IMG/VR virus record: IMGVR_UViG_3300042691_013910
Span: 1-40,452 of that record
Reading direction: 5' to 3' (one strand)
Source: a virus
Length of the DNA: 40,452 nucleotides
Position numbers and translations under genes: made by a program. Of the stretch, positions 4,010 to 38,696 are shown in pieces. Within the stretch, counting starts at the first letter, position 1, and every line of letters starts with the position of its first letter. Below the pieces are notes generated by a model, which was given only the letters and a program-made list of their open reading frames with translations, searched no databases and was not told where the DNA came from.

Positions 4010-4819
4010 TTATAGTTTAGTTGCTGAGTTCCCCATATTTGGATGGATATTGCATGAGTAGTAAATAGGGGATGCTAGGTCATATTTAACTGTAAGGGTT
4101 ATACGGCGAACAGTCGCACCTGCAGTCCATGCAGCAGCGTATGTGTTATAGGTGTTGTAGTTAGTGCCATCAATGTTGTAAATAGCCCCATTTGCAGAAC
4201 TTAATGCACCGTTTGTATTGTCTTGAATGGTTGTTAAATAGAATGGGTGGTTATCAACAGTGTTGTCAGAAACATCAAAAACGTATGTCAGTCCTGGAAG
4301 TAACTTTAACTGTGGATTTTGAACACCATCAACAAAGTAATAGTTAGTACCAACTACAGACTGCACTGTAATTGTATGAGTTACAGTTGCAGCACCAGGA
4401 TTACCTGTAACTCCAATAACTCCTTGAGGTCCAGTAGGTCCAGTAGGTCCAGTTGAACCTGTAGGTCCTGTAGGTCCAGTCACATTTGAAGCAGCCCCTT
4501 GTGCACCTTGAGGTCCTGTCGGTCCTGTCGGTCCTGTCACGTTTGAGGCAGGTCCAGTAGGGCCTGTAACACCTTCTGGCCCTGTTGCACCTGTAGCACC
4601 TATAGAGCCAATTGGACCAGTTGGACCTGTAGGGCCTGTTGCTCCAGTTGGACCAGTAGGTCCGCCTGGGTCTCCTTGTGGTCCTGTAGCACCTGTTGGT
4701 CCTGTAGGACCACCAGATGGACCAGTAGGTCCAGTAGGTCCAGCAACACCTGCAGGTCCTTGTACACCTTCAGTTGCACTGACCCAAGCAGAGCCATTCC
4801 AATACTTTAATGTAGCCAT
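4010..4819 (-). CDS. Collagen-like tail fibre with C-terminal cupredoxin-like knob
   Basis: Residues 1-19 are a short cap ([10 protein letters not shown]). Residues about 20-143 are Gly-x-y repeats, mostly GPT, GAT and GPQ, with a breaker motif (ASNVTGP). The C-terminal 125 residues are a beta-rich domain containing [20 protein letters not shown] and [12 protein letters not shown]. The spacing His191 ... Cys256-x2-His259-x2-Met262 resembles type-1 copper ligands of cupredoxins, and the YVFDV...HPF pattern is typical of such domains in aquatic phage fibres. Collagen-like segments form trimeric shafts and the knob is likely the receptor-facing tip. The ATG overlaps the TAA of the upstream fibre gene (TAATG). 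Confidence 0.88.
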
Positions 4820-29102: not shown

Positions 29103-29270
29103 TTAATCCTCTTCTTTGTTCCTCAAAGGGTAAGTAATTCCCCAAAGAACTATTGTTCCTACGGTTGCCCAGCCAACTACTGATTTTGCCGAGCCATCAA
29201 GCACCACCCAGGCAATAAACATGCCTAGTAGTGTCCAAGACTGTTCAATAAAGTCTCTTAATATTTTCAA
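29103..29270 (-). CDS. 55-residue two-helix membrane protein with TTG start
   Basis: Direct translation from TTG gives KILRDFIEQSWTLLGMFIAW, a second hydrophobic segment (VVGWATVGTIVLWGITYPL), and a polar end (RNKEED). The TTG overlaps the TGA of the 920-residue gene, and TTAGGAG lies upstream at usable spacing, so re-initiation is likely. It has the size and shape of a small holin or antiholin and precedes the other holin candidate. The function is inferred from topology and context. Its shortness and non-ATG start make it easy to miss. Confidence 0.65.
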   Translation of the reverse strand: MKILRDFIEQSWTLLGMFIAWVVLDGSAKSVVGWATVGTIVLWGITYPLRNKEED

Positions 29271-32029
29271 GGCTTACGTCTCCTAACGCCTTTAAGTTCG
29301 CCAGTGGGCCCACCACCGCCACCTGAGTTACCCCCACCTGAAGGTGCAGATGGAGCACTACCACCAGTTGCAAGTCCGACTGCATTTAGTGCTGCACCAG
29401 TTGCGACAACGGTTGCGACGACCATCTTCTCGGCTTCTTCACGTTCTTCTGGCGACATATCTGCACCGATACTTCCAAGTGCAAGGAGAACTTGACCTGG
29501 GTCTTCAAATACTGCGCCTAATAGTTCTGCGGGATTTTGTAACACTTCTAATGCTGCAGCAACTTCAGCAGTAATTATGACAGCATTTCCATTTTCGTCA
29601 GTACGAACATCTACAGGTGTAGCAGGTGGTAAATCTTCGTATGTAATTCCCGCTTCTTTAATTGCTTCAGATGAAAGTGCTTCACCTGGTGCTAACGAAG
29701 ATACAAGAGCCTCTGCTACAACAGCCTTTTCTTCAGCCGTTAACTTTCCGTCTGACAATGCTTCACTTATTACAGTTTCGGGTGTAGGCTCTGGTTCAGG
29801 TTCAACGTTAGGAGTATCTTGTGTTTCTTCCGACTGATTTTCTTGCTGTGGGTTGTCTGTTTCTGGCTCTGTTGATTCTTCAGGTTGGGGTTCGGGAGAA
29901 GACTCGTCAGTTTCGTCGTTTTCTTCAGGGGTTGTGGGCTCTGTCTCTGGCTCTTCTGGGGTTGATGGCTCTTCTGAGTCTGTAGGTTCTTCTGATGGTT
30001 GTTCTTCAGGTGTTTGATTTGAGTCAGAAGGCTCTTCTTCATTATCGGAGGGTGAGTCCTCAGGTTGCTCAGGTTGCTCAGGCTCTGGCTCTGTCTCAGG
30101 GTCGTCAACAGGTGGCTCTTCAGGATTTGGTTCAGGCTCAGGCTGAGGTTCAGGAGTAACAGGTGTCGGAGTTGGTTCTGGGGTTGGTTCTGGGTTTGGT
30201 GTTGGGGTTGGCTCTGGCTGTGGTTCTGGGGCTGGTTGTGGGGATGGCTCTGGTACGGGCGTGGGAGCAGGATTGGGCTGAGAGGCTTGGGATTGCTGAA
30301 CAGAAGCAATTACGGCAATGGCTGAAGACACTGTGGAAGTAGCCTCACTAGCCTTTTGAACTGCTGTGTTTGCTGCTGCATCTGCTGCTGCTAAAGCGGT
30401 AGTTGCATTTGTTTCTGCAGTTACTTGTGCTGCTTGAGCAGTTGTAAGAGTTTCTTGTTCTGTTGTAAGAGTTGCTTGTTCTGTTGTAAGGGTTGTTTGA
30501 GCGGTTGTTAGGTTTGTCTCCGCAGTTGTTTTTGCTTCTGTAAGAGTTGTTAATACCGCAGTCTCTGTAGCAACAACCTCTGTTTGGGCTGCTATCTGTG
30601 CAGTTAAGGTTTCATTAGTTACGTTTGTCATCGGTTGGACTGCTTCACCAGCAGCCTCACGCACACCAATGCGAGGTCCGTTGTAAAGGTTGGTTGTATT
30701 CCCAGAAACACTTCCAACACCTGCCCATTCCCCAGTTGTAGGGTTAACAGTCATTGTCCAGTTAACGTTTGTAATAGGGCCGTTGTTGTCCCCAAATCGG
30801 TGTAAATCCCAATCTACGGCTAAAGTTGTTTCGGTTGTAGTTACGGTAATAGAAGCACCTGGACCAGCACTCATAAAATCAGAGGCGTAAACAGAGATAT
30901 GAGCACCTGCTGGGAAATCCCACCAGTTATAGTCACCAGTACCAAAAGTAATAGTTGCTTTTGAAGTTACGTAGATTTGGCTATTAGTGCCTTGTCCTTC
31001 ATAAACGGTATCGCCCATTTTAATGTCAAAAGGCGTTTGTATTTTGGTTGCTGCATCCCACATGGCAGGAAGAGTTGTTGTAGTGACTGTTGGAGTCTCT
31101 GGAGCAACAGGTGCTACATACCCTTCGGTAGTGTAGGTCTTGGTATCTGAAGGCGTATTTTGGAGAGTAGTTAGTTCGTTTGTTTCTTGAGTAACCACGG
31201 TTTGTTGAGCCTGAACAGCAGTGGTGGCTTGTTGAACATCTTCTTGACGAGCAGCAACTTCAGCAGTCGCTGTAATTACTACGGCTGTTTGAGTGTCTAC
31301 TGCGTTTTGAGCAGTGGCTGTTGTTGCAGCAGCAGTCTCTGCAATTGCTACAGCAACAACGGCTGAATCAGAAGCAGCAACGGCTGCCACAATTGCTGTT
31401 TGAGCCTCTTCAATTCTTGCTTGAGCATTTGTAACTGCGGTTACGACAGTCGTATCTGAAGATACTGGTGTTGGAAGATTAGTTGTGGCACTATTTAAGT
31501 CTTGTTGAGCCTGTGTTGTTGTTACATTTGCGGACTCGATTTTGTTATTAACGGAGGTGACTGATGGACTTTCAGAACTGGCAGGAGTGGGCGTGGACTC
31601 TGTTGTGCTTGGGGACGGGGATTGTTCTGGGGACGGTGTGGACACGGGAGCCGTTGAAGTCGCAGGTGAAGGTTCTGCAGTCACTGTTGGCTCAGGAGCG
31701 GGTGAAGAACTTGGAGTTGGCTCAGGAGTTGAAGTGGTCGAAGGCGAAGGTGATGGCTCAAGAGTCTGACCTTGACCGCTTGAATTCGAAGTGGTTGTGG
31801 AAGGAGTAGGCGATGGAGCAGATGTTGTGGTTTCTGTTTGGCTTGGGATTGGGGTTGGCTCTGGACTGGGTGTTGGTGAAGGCGATGCTTCGCCCTGTGA
31901 AGTCTCGCCTTGATTACTTGGAGGCGGAGTTGTCGACTCTTCGGCGTAAGTAGTCTCTGTTCGCATAATCGTGTAAACGAAAGCAAGTAAGAGAACAGCA
32001 AAAAATTGTTTAATTGCTTTCGGTAGCAA
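29267..32029 (-). CDS. Exported 920-residue Pro/Thr/Glu-rich surface protein
   Basis: The TTG start follows an in-frame TAA directly and yields a good signal peptide: LPKAIKQFFAVLLLAFVYTI, then TTYA/EE as the cleavage site. Next come Ser/Thr/Pro repeats (to about 155), an Ala/Thr/Val-rich heptad region (160-300), and a compact beta-type domain (about 320-470; ITFGTGDYNWWDFPAGAHIS, VDWDLHRFGDNNGPITNVNW). A second Thr/Ala/Glu coil follows, then a long Pro-Glu-rich stretch. A C-terminal domain begins ALSDGKLTAEEKAVVAEALV; after it come a hydrophobic helix, a Gly run and RRRKP, resembling a membrane-anchor tail without LPxTG. The plan is that of a cell-surface protein, unusual in a phage lysis region. 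Confidence 0.8.
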   Translation of the reverse strand: MLPKAIKQFFAVLLLAFVYTIMRTETTYAEESTTPPPSNQGETSQGEASPSPTPSPEPTPIPSQTETTTSAPSPTPSTTTSNSSGQGQTLEPSPSPSTTSTPEPTPSSSPAPEPTVTAEPSPATSTAPVSTPSPEQSPSPSTTESTPTPASSESPSVTSVNNKIESANVTTTQAQQDLNSATTNLPTPVSSDTTVVTAVTNAQARIEEAQTAIVAAVAASDSAVVAVAIAETAAATTATAQNAVDTQTAVVITATAEVAARQEDVQQATTAVQAQQTVVTQETNELTTLQNTPSDTKTYTTEGYVAPVAPETPTVTTTTLPAMWDAATKIQTPFDIKMGDTVYEGQGTNSQIYVTSKATITFGTGDYNWWDFPAGAHISVYASDFMSAGPGASITVTTTETTLAVDWDLHRFGDNNGPITNVNWTMTVNPTTGEWAGVGSVSGNTTNLYNGPRIGVREAAGEAVQPMTNVTNETLTAQIAAQTEVVATETAVLTTLTEAKTTAETNLTTAQTTLTTEQATLTTEQETLTTAQAAQVTAETNATTALAAADAAANTAVQKASEATSTVSSAIAVIASVQQSQASQPNPAPTPVPEPSPQPAPEPQPEPTPTPNPEPTPEPTPTPVTPEPQPEPEPNPEEPPVDDPETEPEPEQPEQPEDSPSDNEEEPSDSNQTPEEQPSEEPTDSEEPSTPEEPETEPTTPEENDETDESSPEPQPEESTEPETDNPQQENQSEETQDTPNVEPEPEPTPETVISEALSDGKLTAEEKAVVAEALVSSLAPGEALSSEAIKEAGITYEDLPPATPVDVRTDENGNAVIITAEVAAALEVLQNPAELLGAVFEDPGQVLLALGSIGADMSPEEREEAEKMVVATVVATGAALNAVGLATGGSAPSAPSGGGNSGGGGGPTGELKGVRRRKP

Positions 32030-32046: not shown

Positions 32047-32214
32047 TTAGTTCTTTTGAGGGACCCAGTTCCGATTAATAATCATTGGGAAAGATTTTCC
32101 ACTGTTAATGGATTCTCCCCGTACACCTTTGCCTGGACTTGACCACGAGATAATAGATGGCTTTTCTACCGATTTCATTTGAACGCTTGATATGTTGGCG
32201 TTCGGTCCGTTCAC
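32047..32214 (-). CDS. Candidate 55-residue protein filling a gap
   Basis: A GTG-started frame fills the interval between the lipoprotein and the 920-residue gene almost exactly. It reads NGPNANISSVQMKSVEKPSI and ends SFPMIINRNWVPQKN. An internal ATG would give 43 residues. There is no ribosome-binding site, but AATAAT lies exactly six bases before the GTG, the same spacing as the other apparent leaderless promoters here. The product is polar with no recognised motif. Real coding status is uncertain. Confidence 0.4.
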   Translation of the reverse strand: MNGPNANISSVQMKSVEKPSIISWSSPGKGVRGESINSGKSFPMIINRNWVPQKN

Positions 32215-32234
32215 GTAGTAATTATTGCAACACG

Positions 32235-32552
32235 TTACGTATTTGGTGGGCTAAACGATGGTGAAGGTAATGGTGGTTCAATATTTAAATCTGGGTCAAC
32301 ATCATCATCGCCCCATGAATCAGGTGTGTCTTGTTGTCCATTAGGGTCAGTAGACGGAAGTGGATTAACTGGAGTTGGATTTTGATTTGACTCTATGTTT
32401 GGCAACTTCCACTCAGGTGTGTTGATTGTTGCGTTTGGTATTTCCACATAGTTGTCGTGGATGTCATTAGTTACAGGTGCGTTTACAGAGCATCCAGTAA
32501 GTGCAAGAGTTAATAGAGGCAGAGCCACTAACATTCGGGGGTTAGTAATCAT
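32235..32552 (-). CDS. Phage-encoded lipoprotein
   Basis: The N-terminus ITNPRMLVALPLLTLALTGC is a lipoprotein signal peptide with lipobox LTGC, so Cys21 would be lipidated and the protein anchored outside the membrane. The rest is Pro/Asn/Asp-rich and likely flexible (EIPNATINTPEWKLPNIESN, PSPSFSPPNT). The product has 105 residues. A near-consensus promoter lies just upstream with the -10 six bases from the ATG, implying a leaderless mRNA. Possible roles are superinfection exclusion or lysis assistance. No family is recognised. Confidence 0.85.
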   Translation of the reverse strand: MITNPRMLVALPLLTLALTGCSVNAPVTNDIHDNYVEIPNATINTPEWKLPNIESNQNPTPVNPLPSTDPNGQQDTPDSWGDDDVDPDLNIEPPLPSPSFSPPNT

Positions 32553-32558
32553 TTGCGG

Positions 32559-32589
32559 ATTATAAACCCACTGTTATCAGATACGTCAA
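32559..32589 (-). promoter_or_regulatory. Near-consensus promoter of the lipoprotein gene, leaderless type
   Basis: On the minus strand TTGACG (-35), 19 bases, and TATAAT (-10) are followed by CCGCAA and the ATG. A start site seven bases after the -10 would fall on the A of the start codon. It is the best sigma-70-like promoter I can see in the window. Confidence 0.75.
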
Positions 32590-32660
32590 GGCGACACGAA
32601 CAGGTGTTTGATATGTCTAAATCTTGGGTATAGACTTCTTTTGCTTCTTCTATAGAAGTT

Positions 32661-32717
32661 TAAGACCTTAGGCTATCGGGTACGAATGTACCTTTTCGGG
32701 GATGGCCTAAGGTCTTA
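32661..32717 (-). other. Two-part hairpin after the 81-codon gene
   Basis: TAAGACCTTAGGC pairs perfectly over 13 bases with GCCTAAGGTCTTA. Inside it, GGTAC-GAAT-GTACC forms a second stem. It begins two bases after the stop codon of the 81-codon gene. A further palindrome (CTTCTATAGAAG) follows downstream. There is no U tract, so it is either a U-less terminator separating this gene from the lipoprotein promoter or a processed 3' end. Confidence 0.75.
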
Positions 32718-32718
32718 G

Positions 32719-32964
32719 TTAATTTACAGGCATACCAGTAAGACCTGATGGGTCTGATACTGATGCTGTTCCGCCTTCTTGATTAACTGCTTGAGGCTGT
32801 GATGCAGTCATGTGTCCGCCGTATCCACTCTGGGCAGCAACTTGAGTGGGATACATGCCCCACCAATAACCGTTGCCAACAAATCCTTTGTCAGGATTCA
32901 TCAACCCACGCTTACGTATCTCTGCCTCAGTTGTAGCAAACTGATTATTACTTAATGAACTCAT
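32719..32964 (-). CDS. Small hypothetical protein, Gly/Met/Trp-containing
   Basis: The 81-residue protein reads SSLSNNQFATTEAEIRKRGL, then a distinctive NGYWWGMYPTQVAAQSGYGG, and a polar C-terminus (SDPSGLTGMPVN). No membrane segment or signal peptide is present. Its start overlaps the stop of the upstream Cys/His protein by four bases, so the two are coupled. No family is recognised. Confidence 0.65.
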   Translation of the reverse strand: MSSLSNNQFATTEAEIRKRGLMNPDKGFVGNGYWWGMYPTQVAAQSGYGGHMTASQPQAVNQEGGTASVSDPSGLTGMPVN

Positions 32965-33143
32965 GCTGTAGCCATTGATGGATGTAGTAAGAACTCAGGG
33001 TCATCAATACGAATAGACACTTCTTTAATCTTAGAAGCATATTCTTTTGCGTGATGTCCGCAAAACAGCAGTTCTCCATTCAACATTACCGCTCTTACTT
33101 TCGCTGCTGCAGAGCAACGGTCGCAACGGTCATTAGCGTTCAT
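32961..33143 (-). CDS. Small Cys/His protein of actinobacterial type (DUF7455-like)
   Basis: The 60-residue protein reads NANDRCDRCSAAAKVRAVML, NGELLFCGHHAKEYASKIKE. The CDRC...GELLFCGHH pattern is one I know from a small protein family widespread in actinobacteria (annotated DUF7455), with two Cys pairs replaced here by CxxC plus C-x-HH, likely a zinc site. The molecular role is not known. Its presence in a phage suggests acquisition from, or adaptation to, an actinobacterial host. It overlaps the next gene by four bases. The ribosome-binding site (AGGTAGG) is weak. Confidence 0.8.
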   Translation of the reverse strand: MNANDRCDRCSAAAKVRAVMLNGELLFCGHHAKEYASKIKEVSIRIDDPEFLLHPSMATA

Positions 33144-33149
33144 GGCTAC

Positions 33150-33425
33150 CTACCTGTTCTTGTTTCCCTTGCCTATGTTCTTCTTGGCTGACATTACCTT
33201 TAGGTTAGAGGAAGACTCGTTATGTTTGTTGTTGTCCTTATGGTCAACGTGTTCTTTCTTCGATAACTTCCTGCCTAGAGACTTTTCTTTTTTGTGGCGG
33301 GCTGAATTAGTAGACGTGGTCTTTTGAGACTTAGGGTCGTACTCAACCATAATCTTGCGACCACCGTTTTGCTTTGAGCCTTTGTAAGGTCCGTAAACCT
33401 TTTTCTTTTTGCTAGGCAGGGTCAC
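33150..33425 (-). CDS. HNH nuclease-like small protein
   Basis: Residues 59-83 contain HVDHKDNNKHNESSSNLKVM and then SAKKNI. This is the HNH/His-Me finger pattern: His59-x-Asp-His62 on the first strand, Asn74 in the turn, and Asn83 on the helix, with the N-terminal strand VYGPYKGSKQNGGRKIMVEY before it. The protein is very basic (91 residues). The start is GTG, coupled to the endolysin gene whose stop lies two bases upstream. A homing-type or packaging-associated nicking nuclease are both possible. CxxC zinc pairs are absent. Confidence 0.8.
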   Translation of the reverse strand: MTLPSKKKKVYGPYKGSKQNGGRKIMVEYDPKSQKTTSTNSARHKKEKSLGRKLSKKEHVDHKDNNKHNESSSNLKVMSAKKNIGKGNKNR

Positions 33426-33427
33426 GA

Positions 33428-34009
33428 TTACTTCTTTATGGCTTGACCGCAGCAGTTACAGAGTTGAACAGGTTCTGAAGATGCTGCTGGTGCAGATGCT
33501 TTAGCGGCTCCTTTGAACTTAGGGCGACCAAAACCAACAATAGAAATCATTACGCCAGCCTTGTTCTTCTTATAGGCACGAAGTTGTTTGCAAACTTCTC
33601 CACCATTTCTTTGGCTTCCAGATTTCTTTGAAGAAGTGTTTCCTTCAATACACCAAACAGTTCCATCTTCGTTGTCTTTGATAACAATTCCTACGTGAGA
33701 AATTCTATCGACACCGTCTGCTGGAAAATCAAAATAGGCGATGTCACCTGGTTCTGGGTCTGCGATGTCTCCATCAATCCATGCACCAGCCTTCTTAAAT
33801 GCTGCTGCACCACCAGGTGTGTACACAGTGTTAGGAACTTTTACTCCCGCTTCATTTGCACACCACATAACGAAGGAGCCACACCAAGGCTGGAAGTTAG
33901 CCTTGGTGAAAGCACCGTACTTCGTTTCGTTGTCTTTAGGACCTTCAATAGTCCCTAGTTCGCCTTTAGCGACTTCAATAAGACGTGCTGCTGTTCCTTG
34001 CTCTGCCAT
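33428..34009 (-). CDS. CHAP-domain endolysin
   Basis: The 193-residue protein has a CHAP amidase/endopeptidase domain: RLIEVAKGELG, the catalytic Cys43 in FQPWCGSFVMW, GDIAYFDFP, catalytic His105 in RISHVGIVI, and IEGN (121-124) as the third polar site. It cleaves peptidoglycan peptide cross-links. There is no signal peptide, so it needs a holin or other route. The tail (KASAPAASSEP ... CNCCGQAIKK) has a Cys cluster (C-x-CC) that might bind zinc or a cell-wall component. AAGGAAG lies before the ATG. It is followed by the HNH gene and preceded by a two-helix membrane protein. Confidence 0.92.
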   Translation of the reverse strand: MAEQGTAARLIEVAKGELGTIEGPKDNETKYGAFTKANFQPWCGSFVMWCANEAGVKVPNTVYTPGGAAAFKKAGAWIDGDIADPEPGDIAYFDFPADGVDRISHVGIVIKDNEDGTVWCIEGNTSSKKSGSQRNGGEVCKQLRAYKKNKAGVMISIVGFGRPKFKGAAKASAPAASSEPVQLCNCCGQAIKK

Positions 34010-34422
34010 TAGTCTTCCTTATCCCAATCAGTGTCTACTGGTTGTTCTTCTGGCATCTGTCCATTTGGCTTTGCAGCAAGACGTGCTGCTGTAGCGTCAA
34101 TCTCTGCTTCAAGTTTCTTGTCTGCCAGGGTGTTCTTAGCGTCCATCTCTTTGTTGGCTAGTTGTGCAGACATAATGTCCTTAGCACCAGACTGACCAAT
34201 TAAAAGACCAGCAAGAGTTCCTGTAATAAATGTTGCAACGCTTCCCAATACATTGAAGAACATCTTGTCATTCTCTGACTGTGCTCCGATTGGCTGCGAT
34301 ACGAAGAGAAGTCCGTAAAGGATTCCCAATGCTGTAAATAGGAGAATCGCTCCTAGCGTGATGCCCAAGATAAACTTCAGACGAGCATCTAAGTCTGCTG
34401 GTGACATTCTGTCTTTAGCCAT
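34009..34422 (-). CDS. Two-helix membrane protein, holin candidate
   Basis: The 137-residue protein has two membrane helices (LGAILLFTALGILYGLLFV near 25-43; VLGSVATFITGTLAGLLIG near 59-77). The C-terminal half is a charged helix (NTLADKKLEAEIDATAARLA). Its stop overlaps the endolysin start (TAATG), the typical linkage of a holin or lysis regulator to its endolysin. It is larger than most holins. A lysis-control membrane protein is an alternative. Confidence 0.7.
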   Translation of the reverse strand: MAKDRMSPADLDARLKFILGITLGAILLFTALGILYGLLFVSQPIGAQSENDKMFFNVLGSVATFITGTLAGLLIGQSGAKDIMSAQLANKEMDAKNTLADKKLEAEIDATAARLAAKPNGQMPEEQPVDTDWDKED

Positions 34423-34654
34423 TTGATTGACCGCTTTCTGTGGTTGTTGTGGTTCCGTCTTGTGTGATGTTCTTCAGTATATCTGAGGTACACGTCAATG
34501 TGGCCTCACAAATAGGAGGATTGCACTCTGCGTTCTTCCAGTTTGCTGGGTCCTGGCATGGATAACGATAACGCTCTAGGTCTTTGCATCCTGTAAGTGA
34601 AAACAAGAGAACACTAGCCATGCCAGCAACTAATAACTTCTTAACGTTTTTCAC
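34415..34654 (-). CDS. Cys-rich phage lipoprotein
   Basis: The GTG start has AGGAG ten bases upstream. KNVKKLLVAGMASVLLFSLT leads to GC, a lipobox (LTGC), so Cys23 is likely lipidated. The mature part reads KDLERYRYPCQDPANWKNAE, CNPPICEATLTCTSDIL, with several Cys probably in disulfides. The RYRYPCQDPANW...C-x-PP-x-C text is one I recall in lipoproteins of aquatic phages near lysis genes. The product has 79 residues. It overlaps neighbours at both ends. A spanin-like or exclusion role is possible, but in a monoderm host the former is unlikely. Confidence 0.85.
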   Translation of the reverse strand: MKNVKKLLVAGMASVLLFSLTGCKDLERYRYPCQDPANWKNAECNPPICEATLTCTSDILKNITQDGTTTTTESGQSNG

Positions 34655-34802
34655 TTTCGAATGACTCCTTAATCGCTAATCGTCGTGCTGTACTTTTATC
34701 TCTCATCCGATTTGTGCGACGGTCATTAAATACTACGGTTTTTTGATTCAGTTTGTAATTACCTGGAGCACCTTTGCCCAAGGACTTGTCTTTCTTAGGC
34801 AC
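34641..34802 (-). CDS. Small basic protein, GTG start
   Basis: The GTG overlaps the TAA of the upstream gene by eight bases and gives 53 residues; a TTG at 34829 would extend it into that gene. The product reads PKKDKSLGKGAPGNYKLNQK, VVFNDRRTNRMRDKSTARRL and a charged end. It is strongly basic, without Cys. No family is recognised. The layout (GTG, Lys-rich start, overlap with upstream stop) parallels the DUF6321-like gene. It is coupled to the lipoprotein gene. Confidence 0.6.
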   Translation of the reverse strand: MPKKDKSLGKGAPGNYKLNQKTVVFNDRRTNRMRDKSTARRLAIKESFESEKR

Positions 34803-35151
34803 TTGGCTTTGGTCCAGTGTCTTTAACAACAGGACGACCAGATGCTTCTGCTCCTCTGCGTGTGTAGGTTTGGTGCTTTGATGTTGATGTCGAATACTTA
34901 ACGTCTGGGATTACCCAACCGTGTGTAGGACTGTGTACACCAATCGGTGTTTGATAAGACATAACAACATAATCAGCGTCGTGTACGTTCTTAAACACAT
35001 TGCCAGCAGCAGAGCCTTCACGTGCTCTACCAAATAGCAGGTGGTCACCAGGACCAGTGTGTCCTCGTGCAGAGATAGCACCGTGACTTACAAACGCTTC
35101 ACGGCGTGAGATTTTTTCGATTGCTTCGGTTGCATTAACTCTTTTAGCCAT
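34795..35151 (-). CDS. Hypothetical protein from a leaderless promoter
   Basis: The ATG giving 118 residues (MAKRVNATEAIEKISRREAF) is chosen because TATTCT lies exactly six bases upstream and no ribosome-binding site exists; a TTG two codons earlier is unlikely. The middle reads SHGAISARGHTGPGDHLLFG and VFKNVHDADYVVMSYQTPIG. The end is basic and polar. There is no membrane segment. The His/Gly-rich middle has the look of a small beta-fold enzyme or binding domain but matches no family I can name. Confidence 0.7.
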   Translation of the reverse strand: MAKRVNATEAIEKISRREAFVSHGAISARGHTGPGDHLLFGRAREGSAAGNVFKNVHDADYVVMSYQTPIGVHSPTHGWVIPDVKYSTSTSKHQTYTRRGAEASGRPVVKDTGPKPSA

Positions 35152-35157
35152 GGTCAA

Positions 35158-35163
35158 AGAATA
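35158..35163 (-). promoter_or_regulatory. TATTCT -10 element, leaderless spacing
   Basis: TATTCT is followed by TTGACC and the ATG of the 118-codon gene. No clear -35 is visible. Spacing is identical to the other TANNNT elements in this region. Confidence 0.6.
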
Positions 35164-35169
35164 AAGTAC

Positions 35170-35715
35170 TTATGCGTACTTGTACTGCTCTTTCTTAGAA
35201 AAAGGTCCAGAAGTCCAAGCATCTTGAGATTCGGCTATCTTCATAGCCTTCAAAGGGGCTGCACCAGCCAATATAGCCCCGACAGCATACTTTGCACCAT
35301 TCCCTACACCATAGATGCCATCGGCTCTTATACCGACCGACAGGTCGTCTTCAACGGCAAATAGCGTTCCACCTACAGCAAGTAAAAACTGGAAACGGTA
35401 TTCGCCATCAGAACTCTCTTCTTTGAAGTCAAAGCCGTTATCAGTCAGACATTGACGGAGAGAAGGCACTGCTTTTGCAATCATGAAGTGATAGAGGTCT
35501 TTAATGTCTCTTTCAGTAGGAGAAGGAGGATTCCAGATGTGCTGTGCTACATCGCAAGGAAACGCTTCACCTGCACCAGCAATTAAAAAATCCCCACGTC
35601 TAGAAACTTTAGACATTTGGGGATGATGAAACTTGCGTCCTTGACCATCTGTTGTTTGATTATCGCAGTAGATAACGCATTTATCTTTCTGCTGGATTCC
35701 AATAATCGTCGTCAC
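35170..35715 (-). CDS. HslV/proteasome-like Ntn hydrolase
   Basis: The GTG start has AAGGA six bases upstream. After removal of the initiator residue the protein begins TTIIGIQQKDKCVIYCDNQT, which aligns position by position with HslV (TTIV...GDGQ-T). Thr1 is the nucleophile, Asp17 is in the same place, and Lys35 (PQMSKVSR) matches the HslV Lys33 after a two-residue insertion. Later features are FLIAGAGEA and GIRADGIYGVGNGAKYAVGA, matching the glycine-rich strand-loop-helix of the beta-type fold. The 181-residue length is that of HslV. A peptidase or amidohydrolase active on host or phage protein is inferred. No HslU-like ATPase gene is nearby. Confidence 0.8.
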   Translation of the reverse strand: MTTIIGIQQKDKCVIYCDNQTTDGQGRKFHHPQMSKVSRRGDFLIAGAGEAFPCDVAQHIWNPPSPTERDIKDLYHFMIAKAVPSLRQCLTDNGFDFKEESSDGEYRFQFLLAVGGTLFAVEDDLSVGIRADGIYGVGNGAKYAVGAILAGAAPLKAMKIAESQDAWTSGPFSKKEQYKYA

Positions 35716-35727
35716 AGTAGGTCCTTA

Positions 35728-35768
35728 AAGTTGGGGGATGAGTAATTCTACTTCCCATCCCCCAACTT
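35728..35768 (-). other. Perfect 13-bp hairpin before the HslV-like gene
   Basis: AAGTTGGGGGATG pairs with CATCCCCCAACTT around a 15-base loop. On the minus strand it follows the 95-codon gene by nine bases and ends one to two bases before the AAGGA ribosome-binding site of the HslV-like gene. There is no U tract. It could end most upstream transcription or keep that ribosome-binding site exposed. Confidence 0.8.
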
Positions 35769-35777
35769 AGAAAGGGT

Positions 35778-36065
35778 CTACTTAGGGTCTCTGTATGTAA
35801 AAGACCCGTAGAAACGGGCTGGTTTGCCCTTATCGTCCGTTTCTGGCCCTGCTACTAACTTCACACTCTTACGAGGTGTCTTTGCTGCTGCCTGGGCTTT
35901 GAGCCACTTCTTAGAGGCAGAGGCGTTCTTCCAAGCGGTAACTGAGACGGTCTCGTTATCGTCTTGGTCGTTCTTAATGATTGTTGTGGCTAACCAACCG
36001 CCACCCTTCTCCTTGTTAAGAACTGTTTTTGCTTCAAACGTGAAGACTTTTCTTGGCACGTTCAT
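35778..36065 (-). CDS. Small basic protein, unknown
   Basis: The ATG giving 95 residues has AAGGAG directly adjacent, too close to use well; a GTG two codons later (36059) has ideal six-base spacing and may be the true start (93 residues). The protein reads VPRKVFTFEAKTVLNKEKGG, LATTIIKNDQDDNETVSVTA, then a basic helix (ASKKWLKAQAAAKTPRKSVK) and FYGSFTYRDPK. No family is recognised. The beta-helix-beta impression and high Lys suggest a nucleic-acid binding or structural protein. A hairpin follows its stop. Confidence 0.65.
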   Translation of the reverse strand: MNVPRKVFTFEAKTVLNKEKGGGWLATTIIKNDQDDNETVSVTAWKNASASKKWLKAQAAAKTPRKSVKLVAGPETDDKGKPARFYGSFTYRDPK

Positions 36066-36116
36066 CTCCTTTGCAAATAGAGTGTGTTGACAATAACACG
36101 GATGTAGTTCTGGGTC

Positions 36117-36122
36117 TAGTAT
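36117..36122 (+). promoter_or_regulatory. TAGTAT -10 element of the plus-strand Zn-ribbon gene
   Basis: TAGTAT is followed by CTGGCT and the ATG, the same six-base spacing as the minus-strand elements. A TTGACA lies further upstream but 24 bases away, too far for a normal pair. The 60-base divergent gap therefore holds this promoter and the ribosome-binding site of the leftward gene. Confidence 0.6.
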
Positions 36123-36128
36123 CTGGCT

Positions 36129-36326
36129 ATGGAAGGTTTAGACGGCATCGATTTTCGTGGGATACCAACTCACGAGTGCCCTGTCTGCGGAAGCACCACA
36201 TTTAGCGTTGCAGCAGGGTTTGCTGACTACAACATCGCTTGGTGGGGCACAGACGCTTCGTGTTACGAATGTGGGGCAAAAGTTACGGTTCCTTGCCCAG
36301 TAGATGACCCTAACCGTTCTGAATAG
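36129..36326 (+). CDS. Isolated plus-strand Zn-ribbon protein
   Basis: The 65-residue protein reads IPTHECPVCGSTTFSVAAGF, YNIAWWGTDASCYECGAKVT and VPCPVDDP. The CPVCG ... CYECG pairs form a zinc ribbon, and the closing PCPVDDP is one I recall from small aquatic-phage proteins. It lies between leftward genes, is transcribed the opposite way, and has no ribosome-binding site but a -10 six bases before its ATG. Its 3' end converges with and overlaps the GT25 gene by 17 bases. A regulator or RNA-polymerase partner is possible; function is unknown. Confidence 0.8.
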   Translation: MEGLDGIDFRGIPTHECPVCGSTTFSVAAGFADYNIAWWGTDASCYECGAKVTVPCPVDDPNRSE

Positions 36327-36930
36327 TCGTATCGAACCCGCCGATGTTGCAATACATCGGAACACCTGGCTTTAGAGTGTAAACATCCCAGTCACGTGTC
36401 ATTCCTCTTTTGAGGATGTACCAATCGACTGCTTCATCAATTGGATAAAGGGCTACTGCCTCAAGTAAACGCTCCGCACCTTTTTTTGAAACCCAGAAGC
36501 ATGCGTTGGACCAGACCTGATAGGACCTGCATATCTGTGTATCACCGATGTCGTAACTCTTCTTGTAGTTATTTGCGCCTTGCCATGGATGAACGTATTG
36601 GTAGAAGAAATCCCAGAACATAGGAAGTCTGTCTAAGTACTGCTTGGTCTTCTCTAAAAACCCAGAGTCGAAGGTGATGTCATCTTCAAGTATCAACAAT
36701 GCGTCGTAGTCGGATTCGATAAACGCATTAAGCGCAACGAAGGTGGAGTGCCATAAGCCAACTTCACCTGGTTTGAATTGTTTTGAAAAATACAGTGGGC
36801 AGGATTCTGTACTGTTTTTAGTTGGGGAACCAAGGTTTGGAAGTTCTAAAGAAGAGTGGATTGCTTTAGCGTTCTCGTCACGTTCGTGAGATACACCGTC
36901 TATGTGAAAGAGTTGGTAGGCCAGATTCAT
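36310..36930 (-). CDS. GT25-family glycosyltransferase
   Basis: The 206-residue protein has the GT25 signature: FKPGEVGLWHSTFVALNAFI (about 52-71) followed by YDALLILEDDITFDSGFLEK (75-94). Here LEDD (81-84) is the metal/nucleotide-sugar motif and GE-x-G-x-x-x-S/H the acceptor-side motif. This family includes LPS galactosyltransferases and collagen hydroxylysine galactosyltransferases. Later WSNACFWVSKKGAERLLEA and YPIDEAVDWYI fit the conserved C-terminal half. The start has a -10 TAGACT six bases upstream and no ribosome-binding site. Targets could be host surface glycans or the phage's collagen-like fibres; both are inferences. Confidence 0.88.
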   Translation of the reverse strand: MNLAYQLFHIDGVSHERDENAKAIHSSLELPNLGSPTKNSTESCPLYFSKQFKPGEVGLWHSTFVALNAFIESDYDALLILEDDITFDSGFLEKTKQYLDRLPMFWDFFYQYVHPWQGANNYKKSYDIGDTQICRSYQVWSNACFWVSKKGAERLLEAVALYPIDEAVDWYILKRGMTRDWDVYTLKPGVPMYCNIGGFDTTIQNG

Positions 36931-36936
36931 GTAGAC

Positions 36937-36942
36937 AGTCTA
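36937..36942 (-). promoter_or_regulatory. TAGACT -10 element of the GT25 gene
   Basis: TAGACT, then GTCTAC, then ATG. It overlaps the TAG stop of the 36-codon gene upstream. No ribosome-binding site or clear -35 is visible. Spacing matches the other leaderless elements. Confidence 0.6.
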
Positions 36943-37050
36943 GCGTGTAACCTCACAAATACAGTTGCACGAGTCGACCTCGCAAACGCCGAACAGGATG
37001 AAATGCCCACACTTAGGGCAGGACTTGGGCTTTCTTACTTCTTCACTCAC
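36940..37050 (-). CDS. 36-residue Cys-rich Zn-ribbon microprotein
   Basis: A GTG-started frame reads SEEVRKPKSCPKCGHFILFG, then CEVDSCNCICEVTR. The CPKCGH knuckle plus C ... C-x-C-x-C gives up to six metal-binding Cys in 36 residues. No ribosome-binding site is present, but GATAAT lies exactly six bases before the GTG. It occupies the gap between the SpeD-linked gene and the GT25 gene. Its size makes the call moderate; the strong Cys pattern supports it. Confidence 0.55.
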   Translation of the reverse strand: MSEEVRKPKSCPKCGHFILFGVCEVDSCNCICEVTR

Positions 37051-37056
37051 AGCCCA

Positions 37057-37062
37057 ATTATC
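37057..37062 (-). promoter_or_regulatory. GATAAT -10-like element in a small hairpin
   Basis: GATAAT, TGGGCT, then GTG of the 36-codon gene. The element lies in the loop of a short stem (AGCCC/GGGCT, 37051-37067) that also follows the upstream stop codon, so termination and re-initiation of transcription may be combined here. Confidence 0.45.
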
Positions 37063-37065
37063 GGG

Positions 37066-37278
37066 CTAAGAGTTCCAGAGTTCGTCCTCAATGCGAAGGA
37101 TTTCTTCTAACTCCTCAGCACTTGGCTGCATAATAAAGGGAGGCTTCTTGGCCTTCAATCGCTTCTCGTAGTAATCCTTAGGTGGGTTCTCGTGGAAGTC
37201 GTTGAGATGCTTTTGCTTCTTAACTGCAGACATCTTTTGCTGATGCTGAGAAACATCGAACTGCTTGGTCTTAATCAT
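37066..37278 (-). CDS. Small basic protein coupled to speD
   Basis: The 70-residue protein reads IKTKQFDVSQHQQKMSAVKK, then LNDFHENPPKDYYEKRLKAK and an acidic helix at the end (SAEELEEILRIEDELWN). It has a basic N-terminal two-thirds and an acidic tail. Its ATG overlaps the TGA of speD (ATGA), so it is translationally coupled. No family is recognised. It could act with SpeD, for example as a small regulator, but there is no direct evidence. Confidence 0.65.
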   Translation of the reverse strand: MIKTKQFDVSQHQQKMSAVKKQKHLNDFHENPPKDYYEKRLKAKKPPFIMQPSAEELEEILRIEDELWNS

Positions 37279-37751
37279 TGAACTACGAAACCATTCTCTC
37301 TATCTAGGTGTAGGTAGTCCAAATCTACAACCTGGAAGGTCTCGTTGAAAAGAGCCAGCACTTGGTCAACATCTAAAGAACCACAGGTGTACAGGTCGAA
37401 CTGAACTAGAGCAGGGTCCTTCTCATCCCAGATGTGGAAGGCGATGTGGCTGGTCTCAATCATTACGATTGCAGTTAGACCACGGTTACCTGGCTTATCT
37501 ACATAACTGGCAAACGGCCCCTTGATAATCTTCATATCGATGTTCTCAACTAAACGCTTCAAGAAGCCGATGGCCTCTTCCTCGGACCGCATCGGGGAGG
37601 TTACTTTGGCATTAATCAACAAATGCTTATGAAGTATGGGCTTCACCTCGCCACGCTCGCAGGTACATCCACCACAGCCACAGGACTGCTCTTTTGCTAA
37701 AGGGAGTTCATTCATCTTGTTCATCCTTGCTAGTATCTTGGGATTCATCAT
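37275..37751 (-). CDS. speD: S-adenosylmethionine decarboxylase, phage type
   Basis: The enzyme makes decarboxylated SAM for spermidine synthesis. The domain begins HKHLLINAK (41-49) and contains DMKIIKGPFASYV, GNRGLTAIVMIETSHIAFHI and FDLYTCGSLDVDQ. Ser101 in ETSHIAFH is the expected pyruvoyl-forming cleavage residue. His106 and Cys123 match the catalytic His and Cys of the bacterial enzyme, so it looks active. The text closely recalls cyanophage SpeD. The N-terminal 40 residues are unusual: SCGCGGCTCERG has Cys at 24, 26, 29 and 31, an apparent metal-binding extension. The start has TAGCCT six bases upstream and no ribosome-binding site. Confidence 0.9.
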   Translation of the reverse strand: MMNPKILARMNKMNELPLAKEQSCGCGGCTCERGEVKPILHKHLLINAKVTSPMRSEEEAIGFLKRLVENIDMKIIKGPFASYVDKPGNRGLTAIVMIETSHIAFHIWDEKDPALVQFDLYTCGSLDVDQVLALFNETFQVVDLDYLHLDRENGFVVQ

Positions 37752-37757
37752 GGCAGA

Positions 37758-37763
37758 AGGCTA
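37758..37763 (-). promoter_or_regulatory. TAGCCT -10 element of speD
   Basis: TAGCCT, then TCTGCC, then ATG. It overlaps the 12-base word TAGGCAGTAGCC that also occurs upstream of the neighbouring nuclease gene, so the site may be regulated. No clear -35 is seen. Confidence 0.6.
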
Positions 37764-37777
37764 CTGCCTAAGAAGTA

Positions 37778-38302
37778 CTACGTAACGCTAGTCGTGGATG
37801 GCTCGTTATCTATAAAGACATCTGTGGGCACACGCCAACAGAGCCGCTTGCCACCCATCTCGACAGACCACCAGTCATCTCGCTGACACTGCTCCACAGG
37901 TATCCAGCCGTAGACCTGCACCTGACTGAAGTAGTCGTCATCTAATACACGAGTGCCCACCAGGAGCATCCCTGGTCTTATATCCTTAGGAAACAGTGGT
38001 ACGGCATCCCTGGTTCTCATGTTCTTGACCTCTAGGTTAGGAAGCACATCAGGTATATCCTTACGGAATGGGTGCTCGCTATTGGGATAGAACGGTAGTA
38101 CGTGAGGTAGTTTCCATAACTTGGCTACCGCGTACTCTGCCACTATAGAGCGAACATTAGCCATCAACTCTGGCTCTAGATACTGCTTGTTCTCCCCCGC
38201 ATAATTAGCCCTATCCTCTGACCCGAATTTCATCAACCATCGATGTAGGCCCATATCAGCACAGATGGCTACTTCCTCTTTAGTCAAAGTAACCGTCTTC
38301 AC
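37778..38302 (-). CDS. PD-(D/E)XK-like nuclease candidate
   Basis: The 174-residue protein has an acidic helix (RSIVAEYAVAKLW, Glu56), then FRKDIPDVLPNLEVKNMRTR, a D-x(n)-E-V-K pattern with Asp82/Asp85, Glu91 and Lys93. That is the PD-(D/E)XK core, and the following RDAVPLFPKDIRPGMLLVGT strand order and GWIPVEQC end match a family of small phage nuclease-like proteins. It could degrade host DNA or resolve phage DNA. The start is GTG with TAAATT exactly six bases upstream; GCGGGG between them might also serve as a weak ribosome-binding site. It is the first leftward gene after the divergence region. Confidence 0.75.
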   Translation of the reverse strand: MKTVTLTKEEVAICADMGLHRWLMKFGSEDRANYAGENKQYLEPELMANVRSIVAEYAVAKLWKLPHVLPFYPNSEHPFRKDIPDVLPNLEVKNMRTRDAVPLFPKDIRPGMLLVGTRVLDDDYFSQVQVYGWIPVEQCQRDDWWSVEMGGKRLCWRVPTDVFIDNEPSTTSVT

Positions 38303-38308
38303 CCCCGC

Positions 38309-38314
38309 AATTTA
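38309..38314 (-). promoter_or_regulatory. TAAATT -10 element of the first leftward gene
   Basis: TAAATT, then GCGGGG, then GTG. The 12-base word TAGGCAGTAGCC lies 11 bases further upstream, over the -35 region. It is probably the start of leftward transcription from the divergence region. Confidence 0.6.
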
Positions 38315-38489
38315 TCACTACTTTCGGCTACTGCCTAGGATTCAAACCTTCAACCGTGTCTTACATCTGGCGGTGGGTTTTACAGCGATTTTCTAAGGGT
38401 GGGGGGCTATCAGCGTTGTTCTTTAGCAATCTGTTTATGAAACAACTTGTATGTGTTCTATCTATGTTTATTTATTATTGTTATTAGTG

Positions 38490-38513
38490 CGTTGATAGCA
38501 ACGTTGATAGCAA
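38490..38513. repeat. Tandem 12-bp repeat CGTTGATAGCAA
   Basis: CGTTGATAGCAA occurs twice head to tail. A related inverted word (GCTATCAGCG) lies about 80 bases to the left. The arrangement is iteron-like and could bind a replication or regulatory protein. Confidence 0.75.
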
Positions 38514-38696
38514 GCATTGGCTACTGTGTTTTTTATTCATGTTGTTGTGTGACTACCACCAGACCTACAAGCATTGTCCGTCACTATTATCAGATAGTTA
38601 TTTAGTTATGTATCTACCAATCGTCATTACTAAACGCATACAACAATCATTGTTTATTACTACGTAATCTCTTTACTAATCGCTATGCGAAAGCAT

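Follow-up and report, generated by a model that had tools for sequence, protein, structure and literature searches.

A hexamer resembling a -10 box, held six bases ahead of start codons, points to leaderless messages in a freshwater phage lineage

How are genes expressed when their start codons follow, at a distance of six bases, a hexamer that resembles a bacterial -10 promoter box? The question is raised by the IMG/VR virus record IMGVR_UViG_3300042691_013910 (40,452 bases, 44.6% G+C; this whole stretch of DNA is called the window here), in which a first-pass annotation had pointed to TANNNT hexamers six bases before the start codons of six genes and had proposed that their transcripts are leaderless. 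All six hexamers do lie exactly at -12 to -7, and on comparison with related phages the leaderless reading stands for five of the genes and most likely falls for the sixth, at 37751. We put the probability that the five are read from leaderless messages, by way of -10 boxes, at about 0.82.

The candidate -10 boxes of the five genes are TATAAT (32559..32564, minus strand), six bases ahead of the ATG at 32552 of a lipoprotein-like gene (32235-32552); TATTCT (35158..35163, minus), preceding the ATG at 35151 of gene 34795-35151; TAGTAT (36117..36122, plus), preceding the ATG at 36129 of a zinc-ribbon-like gene (36129-36326); TAGACT (36937..36942, minus), preceding the ATG at 36930 of a glycosyltransferase-like gene (36310-36930); and TAAATT (38309..38314, minus), preceding the GTG at 38302 of gene 37778-38302. 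The sixth hexamer, TAGCCT (37758..37763, minus), precedes the ATG at 37751 of an S-adenosylmethionine (AdoMet) decarboxylase gene and is probably not a -10 box. Two minus-strand sequences that had been set beside these six have the right offset and lack the first T, matching NANNNT rather than TANNNT, and are weaker candidates: GATAAT (37057..37062), at -12 of the GTG at 37050 of a 35-aa zinc-ribbon-like open reading frame (ORF), and AATAAT (32221..32226), at -12 of the GTG at 32214 of a 55-aa ORF.

To evaluate the spacing, TANNNT was counted at every offset from -40 to -6 upstream of 53 curated plausible starts in the window. It was found at -12 in 7 of the 53 and at no more than 3 starts at any other offset; given a background of 1.05% in the window, at least 6 matches among 53 starts has a binomial P of ~2e-5. 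The seventh match belongs to a tail-fibre-like gene at 4819 (minus strand), which also has an SD-like (Shine-Dalgarno-like) sequence. The same count was made in a lineage set comprising the window and 13 related phages (most of 77-98 kb; 1.12 Mb and 1,241 non-redundant genes in all), with start codons picked blind to the upstream sequence. Here TANNNT occurred 58 times at -12, compared with a mean of 17.6 (s.d. 8.3, maximum 36) elsewhere (Poisson P ~2e-14), and the offsets neighbouring the peak held only 8-14. The offset count proposed in the first-pass annotation thus places the hexamer at -12 more often than at other offsets, in the window and in the lineage alike.

The peak was also seen in other freshwater phages, at 78 loci surrounding their AdoMet decarboxylase genes, where starts were likewise picked blind: TANNNT was present 117 times at -12 versus 39.8, and the stricter TATANT 57 times versus 7.9. 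Internal ATGs of genes from loci of this type showed no peak at -12 (29 versus 37.5), and two Pelagibacter phages, a small control, showed none either (TANNNT at 1 of 102 starts).

The lineage itself appears to be one of freshwater phages of actinobacteria, and a host of that kind is suggested by the phage's relatives. Identity to BRock-group Streptomyces phages (Borockvirus) reaches 61.6% in the major capsid protein and is ~53% in the large terminase. The closest relative in the comparison, IMGVR_UViG_3300021376_000071 (here L002), is ~78-88% identical across most of the region. A Megablast search of the region against annotated phages gave no match, and a search of genomes for the AdoMet decarboxylase matched solely a 3.7-kb contig of a Paceibacterota metagenome-assembled genome.

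Conservation of the box and of its exact spacing in orthologues is the strongest evidence that these are leaderless promoters, as far as comparison of sequences can indicate. Orthologues hold TANNNT at -12 although the middle bases of the box, the spacer and the flanks differ. Among the 11 closest orthologues of the 36129 gene (65-83% identity), 10 have the hexamer at -12 with differing spacers, the boxes being TAGTAT, TAGACT, TACTAT, TATGAT, TAGAAT or TAGGAT, and the eleventh has TAGTAT at -13. All five of the closest orthologues of the 35151 gene (57-75% identity) carry TACTAT, TACAAT (three times) or TACACT at -12, and each of the 5 non-redundant orthologues of the 32552 gene has TANNNT at -12, with L002 showing TAATCT in a register shifted by two bases. 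In the 38302 family the figure is 9 of 17. In none of these four families did another offset rise above 4; orthologues within one family are mutually related, so binomial significance for families is overstated.

Fewer orthologues bear on the remaining candidates. The 36930 gene has the box in its two closest orthologues, TAAACT in L002 and TAGGCT in L304, and has none in L312. The TAG of its box doubles as the stop codon of a small upstream gene; since L304 keeps the box though the upstream stop has moved away, the hexamer is not merely a stop codon. GATAAT at 37050 is identical in L002, with too few orthologues for a conservation test, and at 32214 L002 has the same AATAAT with ATG replacing GTG, which supports that start codon. 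The 38302 gene (37778-38302, minus strand) is absent from L002 while its flanks and the motif GGCAGTAGCC, described below, are kept (L002 ~990-1113). Judged from this alignment, it is a single gene gained or lost, with a start-site box of its own.

A further family supplied an independent case. A protein of 290-330 aa, predicted to be nucleotidyltransferase-like from a GS...DxD-type motif and with no Pfam or PHROGs match above the cut-off, has TARACT or TAGAAT exactly at -12 in every one of the 11 phages carrying the gene. In BRock the homologue gp39, at 35% identity, shows TAAACT at -12 relative to its GenBank-annotated start.

The base just before the start codon behaves as expected of a transcription start. 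In the lineage, 83% of genes that combine TANNNT at -12 with the lack of an SD site have a pyrimidine at -1, compared with 41% of genes with neither signal (P = 4e-8); the bases at -1 in the window's own set are C, C, T, C, C and G. Mapped transcription starts of Mycobacterium tuberculosis share this preference at -1, and their TANNNT box likewise comes with no -35 consensus (PMC3898074). A good -35-like box was found only at 32552, where TTGACG (32584..32589, minus) lies 19 bases upstream of TATAAT and is conserved in L002 as TTGACC. Between this promoter candidate and gene 32719-32964 is a strong hairpin, possibly a terminator (32661..32717, minus), with -31 kcal/mol over 86 nt (z = -7.3) and arms that are kept in L002; it is followed by no T-run and has no match in Rfam, nor did an Rfam search of the whole window give one.

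That most of these genes lack a ribosome-binding site, as the first-pass annotation had said, is true: an SD core is present between -18 and -4 in 0 of the 6 genes with hexamers. As independent evidence the point does not hold, since a TANNNT box here takes the place of an SD site in any event; genes with TANNNT at -14, -13, -11 or -9 have SD fractions of 0.10-0.15 as well, and its absence is therefore weak evidence.

Taken together, these observations suggest that the hexamers of the five genes would act as -10 boxes of host-type (sigma-70/SigA-like) promoters, from which RNA polymerase would begin on the first base of the start codon or no more than about two bases away from it. The resulting leaderless mRNA would then be translated by actinobacterial host ribosomes without an SD site. 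Some such promoters lie inside tightly packed runs of genes and could provide single genes with an entry point of their own. Beyond this, it is a tentative idea, and to us a rather doubtful one, that selection in this lineage keeps a defined set of genes leaderless, with a single exact spacing, while most others keep SD sites, and that near some of them GGCAGTAGCC, beside the -10 box, would add a further layer of control.

The genes had also been described as accessory rather than virion genes that may share timing. Within the window the contrast is visible, with TANNNT at -12 of 6 of ~20 starts beyond 32 kb compared with 1 of 33 before (P = 0.009), yet in the relatives the rates are equal: 6 of 116 structural genes and 52 of 1,125 others. 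Structural-block genes among the matches include a portal gene and a KTSC-domain gene, and we saw no sequence link among the promoters, beyond the ordinary -10 box, that would support shared timing. The layout was therefore given up as a mark of accessory genes.

For the AdoMet decarboxylase gene (37275-37751, minus strand) a different signal accounts for the sequence better. The TAGCCT before 37751 is the tail of a repeated intergenic motif, GGCAGTAGCC (37759..37768, minus), and the leaderless layout is kept in no orthologue; L002 keeps the motif and has its start codon 8 bases after the hexamer rather than 6. The hexamer at 37751 is thus most likely not a leaderless promoter, on the evidence of these alignments. 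The motif has 24 exact copies in the 14 phages, compared with 2.3 expected from a third-order Markov model, and 20 of them are intergenic. Several copies are within ~30 bases of a start codon, and in some relatives the motif directly adjoins a -10 box and start codon, as in CAGTAGCC-TATAAT-GAGCTTT-ATG in L292. It is rather more likely than not that the signal that matters at 37751, and in part at 38302, is GGCAGTAGCC, acting as a phage-specific regulatory site, rather than a TANNNT box lying over or after it. A copy of the motif does lie upstream of 38302 (38326..38335, minus); against this explanation there, the gene has a TAAATT of its own at -12 as well, and in most of its orthologues with TANNNT the box has no GGCAGTAGCC beside it.

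Several observations belong to this neighbourhood. The decarboxylase (PF02675) is widespread in aquatic phages, with 185 confirmed relatives among IMG/VR candidate stretches, and its start may be 37724 rather than 37751, the L002 start being aligned with this later ATG. The related motif CAGTAGCC occurs at 38519-38526 (minus), and an AT-rich non-coding stretch at ~38460-38530 holds CTATCAA-type repeats beside CAGTAGCCAA; comparable stretches occupy a similar kind of place in several relatives (from 8074 in L280, 9132 in L300 and 11578 in L256), and by their sequence the repeats could be origin iterons or operator sites. A scan of IMG/VR for AGGCAGTAGCCNAAAG returned 86 stretches, a number possibly at chance level in so large a collection and supporting no conclusion.

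For the five genes, the alternative that fares best accepts the boxes as real and places the start of transcription a few bases inside or before the codon, or makes the main messages leadered and polycistronic with only a minor leaderless start. Some features fit such an arrangement: 35151, 36930 and many genes of the relatives belong to co-directional runs whose gaps are short, TANNNT at -12 was not enriched at operon heads (0.38 versus 0.37 overall), and in L002 the 32552 gene has a better TATAAT two bases farther from the ATG. The sharpness of the peak at -12 and the pyrimidine at -1 favour instead a start on the first base of the codon, and the genes have no SD site that a leadered message could use; we regard this alternative as unlikely, if still worth weighing. 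Far less credible is an origin of the hexamers in chance matches, arising from AT-rich gaps, from TAA or TAG stops at a common intergenic distance and from a choice of starts that fits, since TANNNT is held at the exact offset in orthologues with altered surroundings, which contradicts chance for the five genes, and since the starts in the lineage set and in the 78 loci were chosen blind; stop codons do fall on -12 in 28 co-directional genes with a 9-base gap, 9 of them with the final T, which is about the number expected by chance, and the 36930 box overlaps such a stop and the 37751 site is not conserved, but the stop-codon kind makes up only 9 of 61 cases in the 14 phages.

Other findings weigh against the leaderless reading of the five genes and have to be set beside its support. 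The excess over background amounts to only ~3 genes per phage, so lone cases without orthologues may be chance. Among the annotated starts of BRock, 3 of 101 have TANNNT at -12 (mean 0.8), too few to confirm the peak in that phage. More distant orthologues of 35151, 36129 and 38302 have SD sites or neither signal, and the nucleotidyltransferase-like family has TAGACT at -13, not -12, in four other Streptomyces phages, indicating that the spacing is not absolute. A common -35 box was looked for and not found.

Two other genes in the window can be mentioned briefly. The product of the frame at 35170-35715 (minus strand) is related to HslV-family peptidases (phrog_1040, E = 3e-22); the frame has a GTG start with an SD site. 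A 920-aa open frame at 29267-32029 (minus) is rich in Pro, Ser, Thr and Glu and has a signal-like N terminus; its 899-aa form, from 31966, had no PHROGs match.

The layout that we describe was familiar in actinobacteria, as the first-pass annotation had said. In such bacteria, ~20-26% of genes are leaderless, with TANNNT just before the start, no SD site and no common -35 box (Zheng et al. 2011, PMC3160421; Cortes et al. 2013, PMC3898074). The phage genes share these features and the pyrimidine before a purine start, and differ in belonging to a lytic-type phage lineage, in being few per phage and in being known from sequence alone. A -10 motif beside ORFs in Deinococcus-Thermus (PMC12340547) is likewise a TANNNT box that must stand at a set distance from the ORF; it concerns cellular genes of another phylum whose leaderless expression was shown by experiment, whereas ours is a matter of comparison. 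Among actinophages, gene 90 of mycobacteriophage Adephagia (PMC11373665) has been predicted to start on its start codon, a single predicted case compared with a gene set conserved in orthologues across a lineage. The GGCAGTAGCC motif resembles the start-associated sequence (SAS) and extended start-associated sequence (ESAS) of Cluster K mycobacteriophages and Cluster EF Microbacterium phages (PMC3203893, PMC7302621) in being a repeated motif, unusually well conserved, that lies shortly before starts. Its sequence differs from theirs, and some copies adjoin a -10 box; the Cluster EF SAS is at the position of a ribosome-binding site and aligned with the 3' end of 16S rRNA, while GGCAGTAGCC has no core of the AGGA/GGAG type and would therefore act, if at all, otherwise than an SD-type SAS. 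In the searchable literature, with subscription journals mostly outside its scope, no survey of leaderless promoters in phages of this kind came up.

The comparison suggests that a leaderless layout has been kept gene by gene over long divergence, from many uncultured phages to an isolated Streptomyces phage. Gene finders that depend on SD sites may misplace starts in these phages, for which the fixed spacing offers a simple rule for placing them, and phages of the BRock group would provide laboratory systems in which leaderless translation can be measured during infection.

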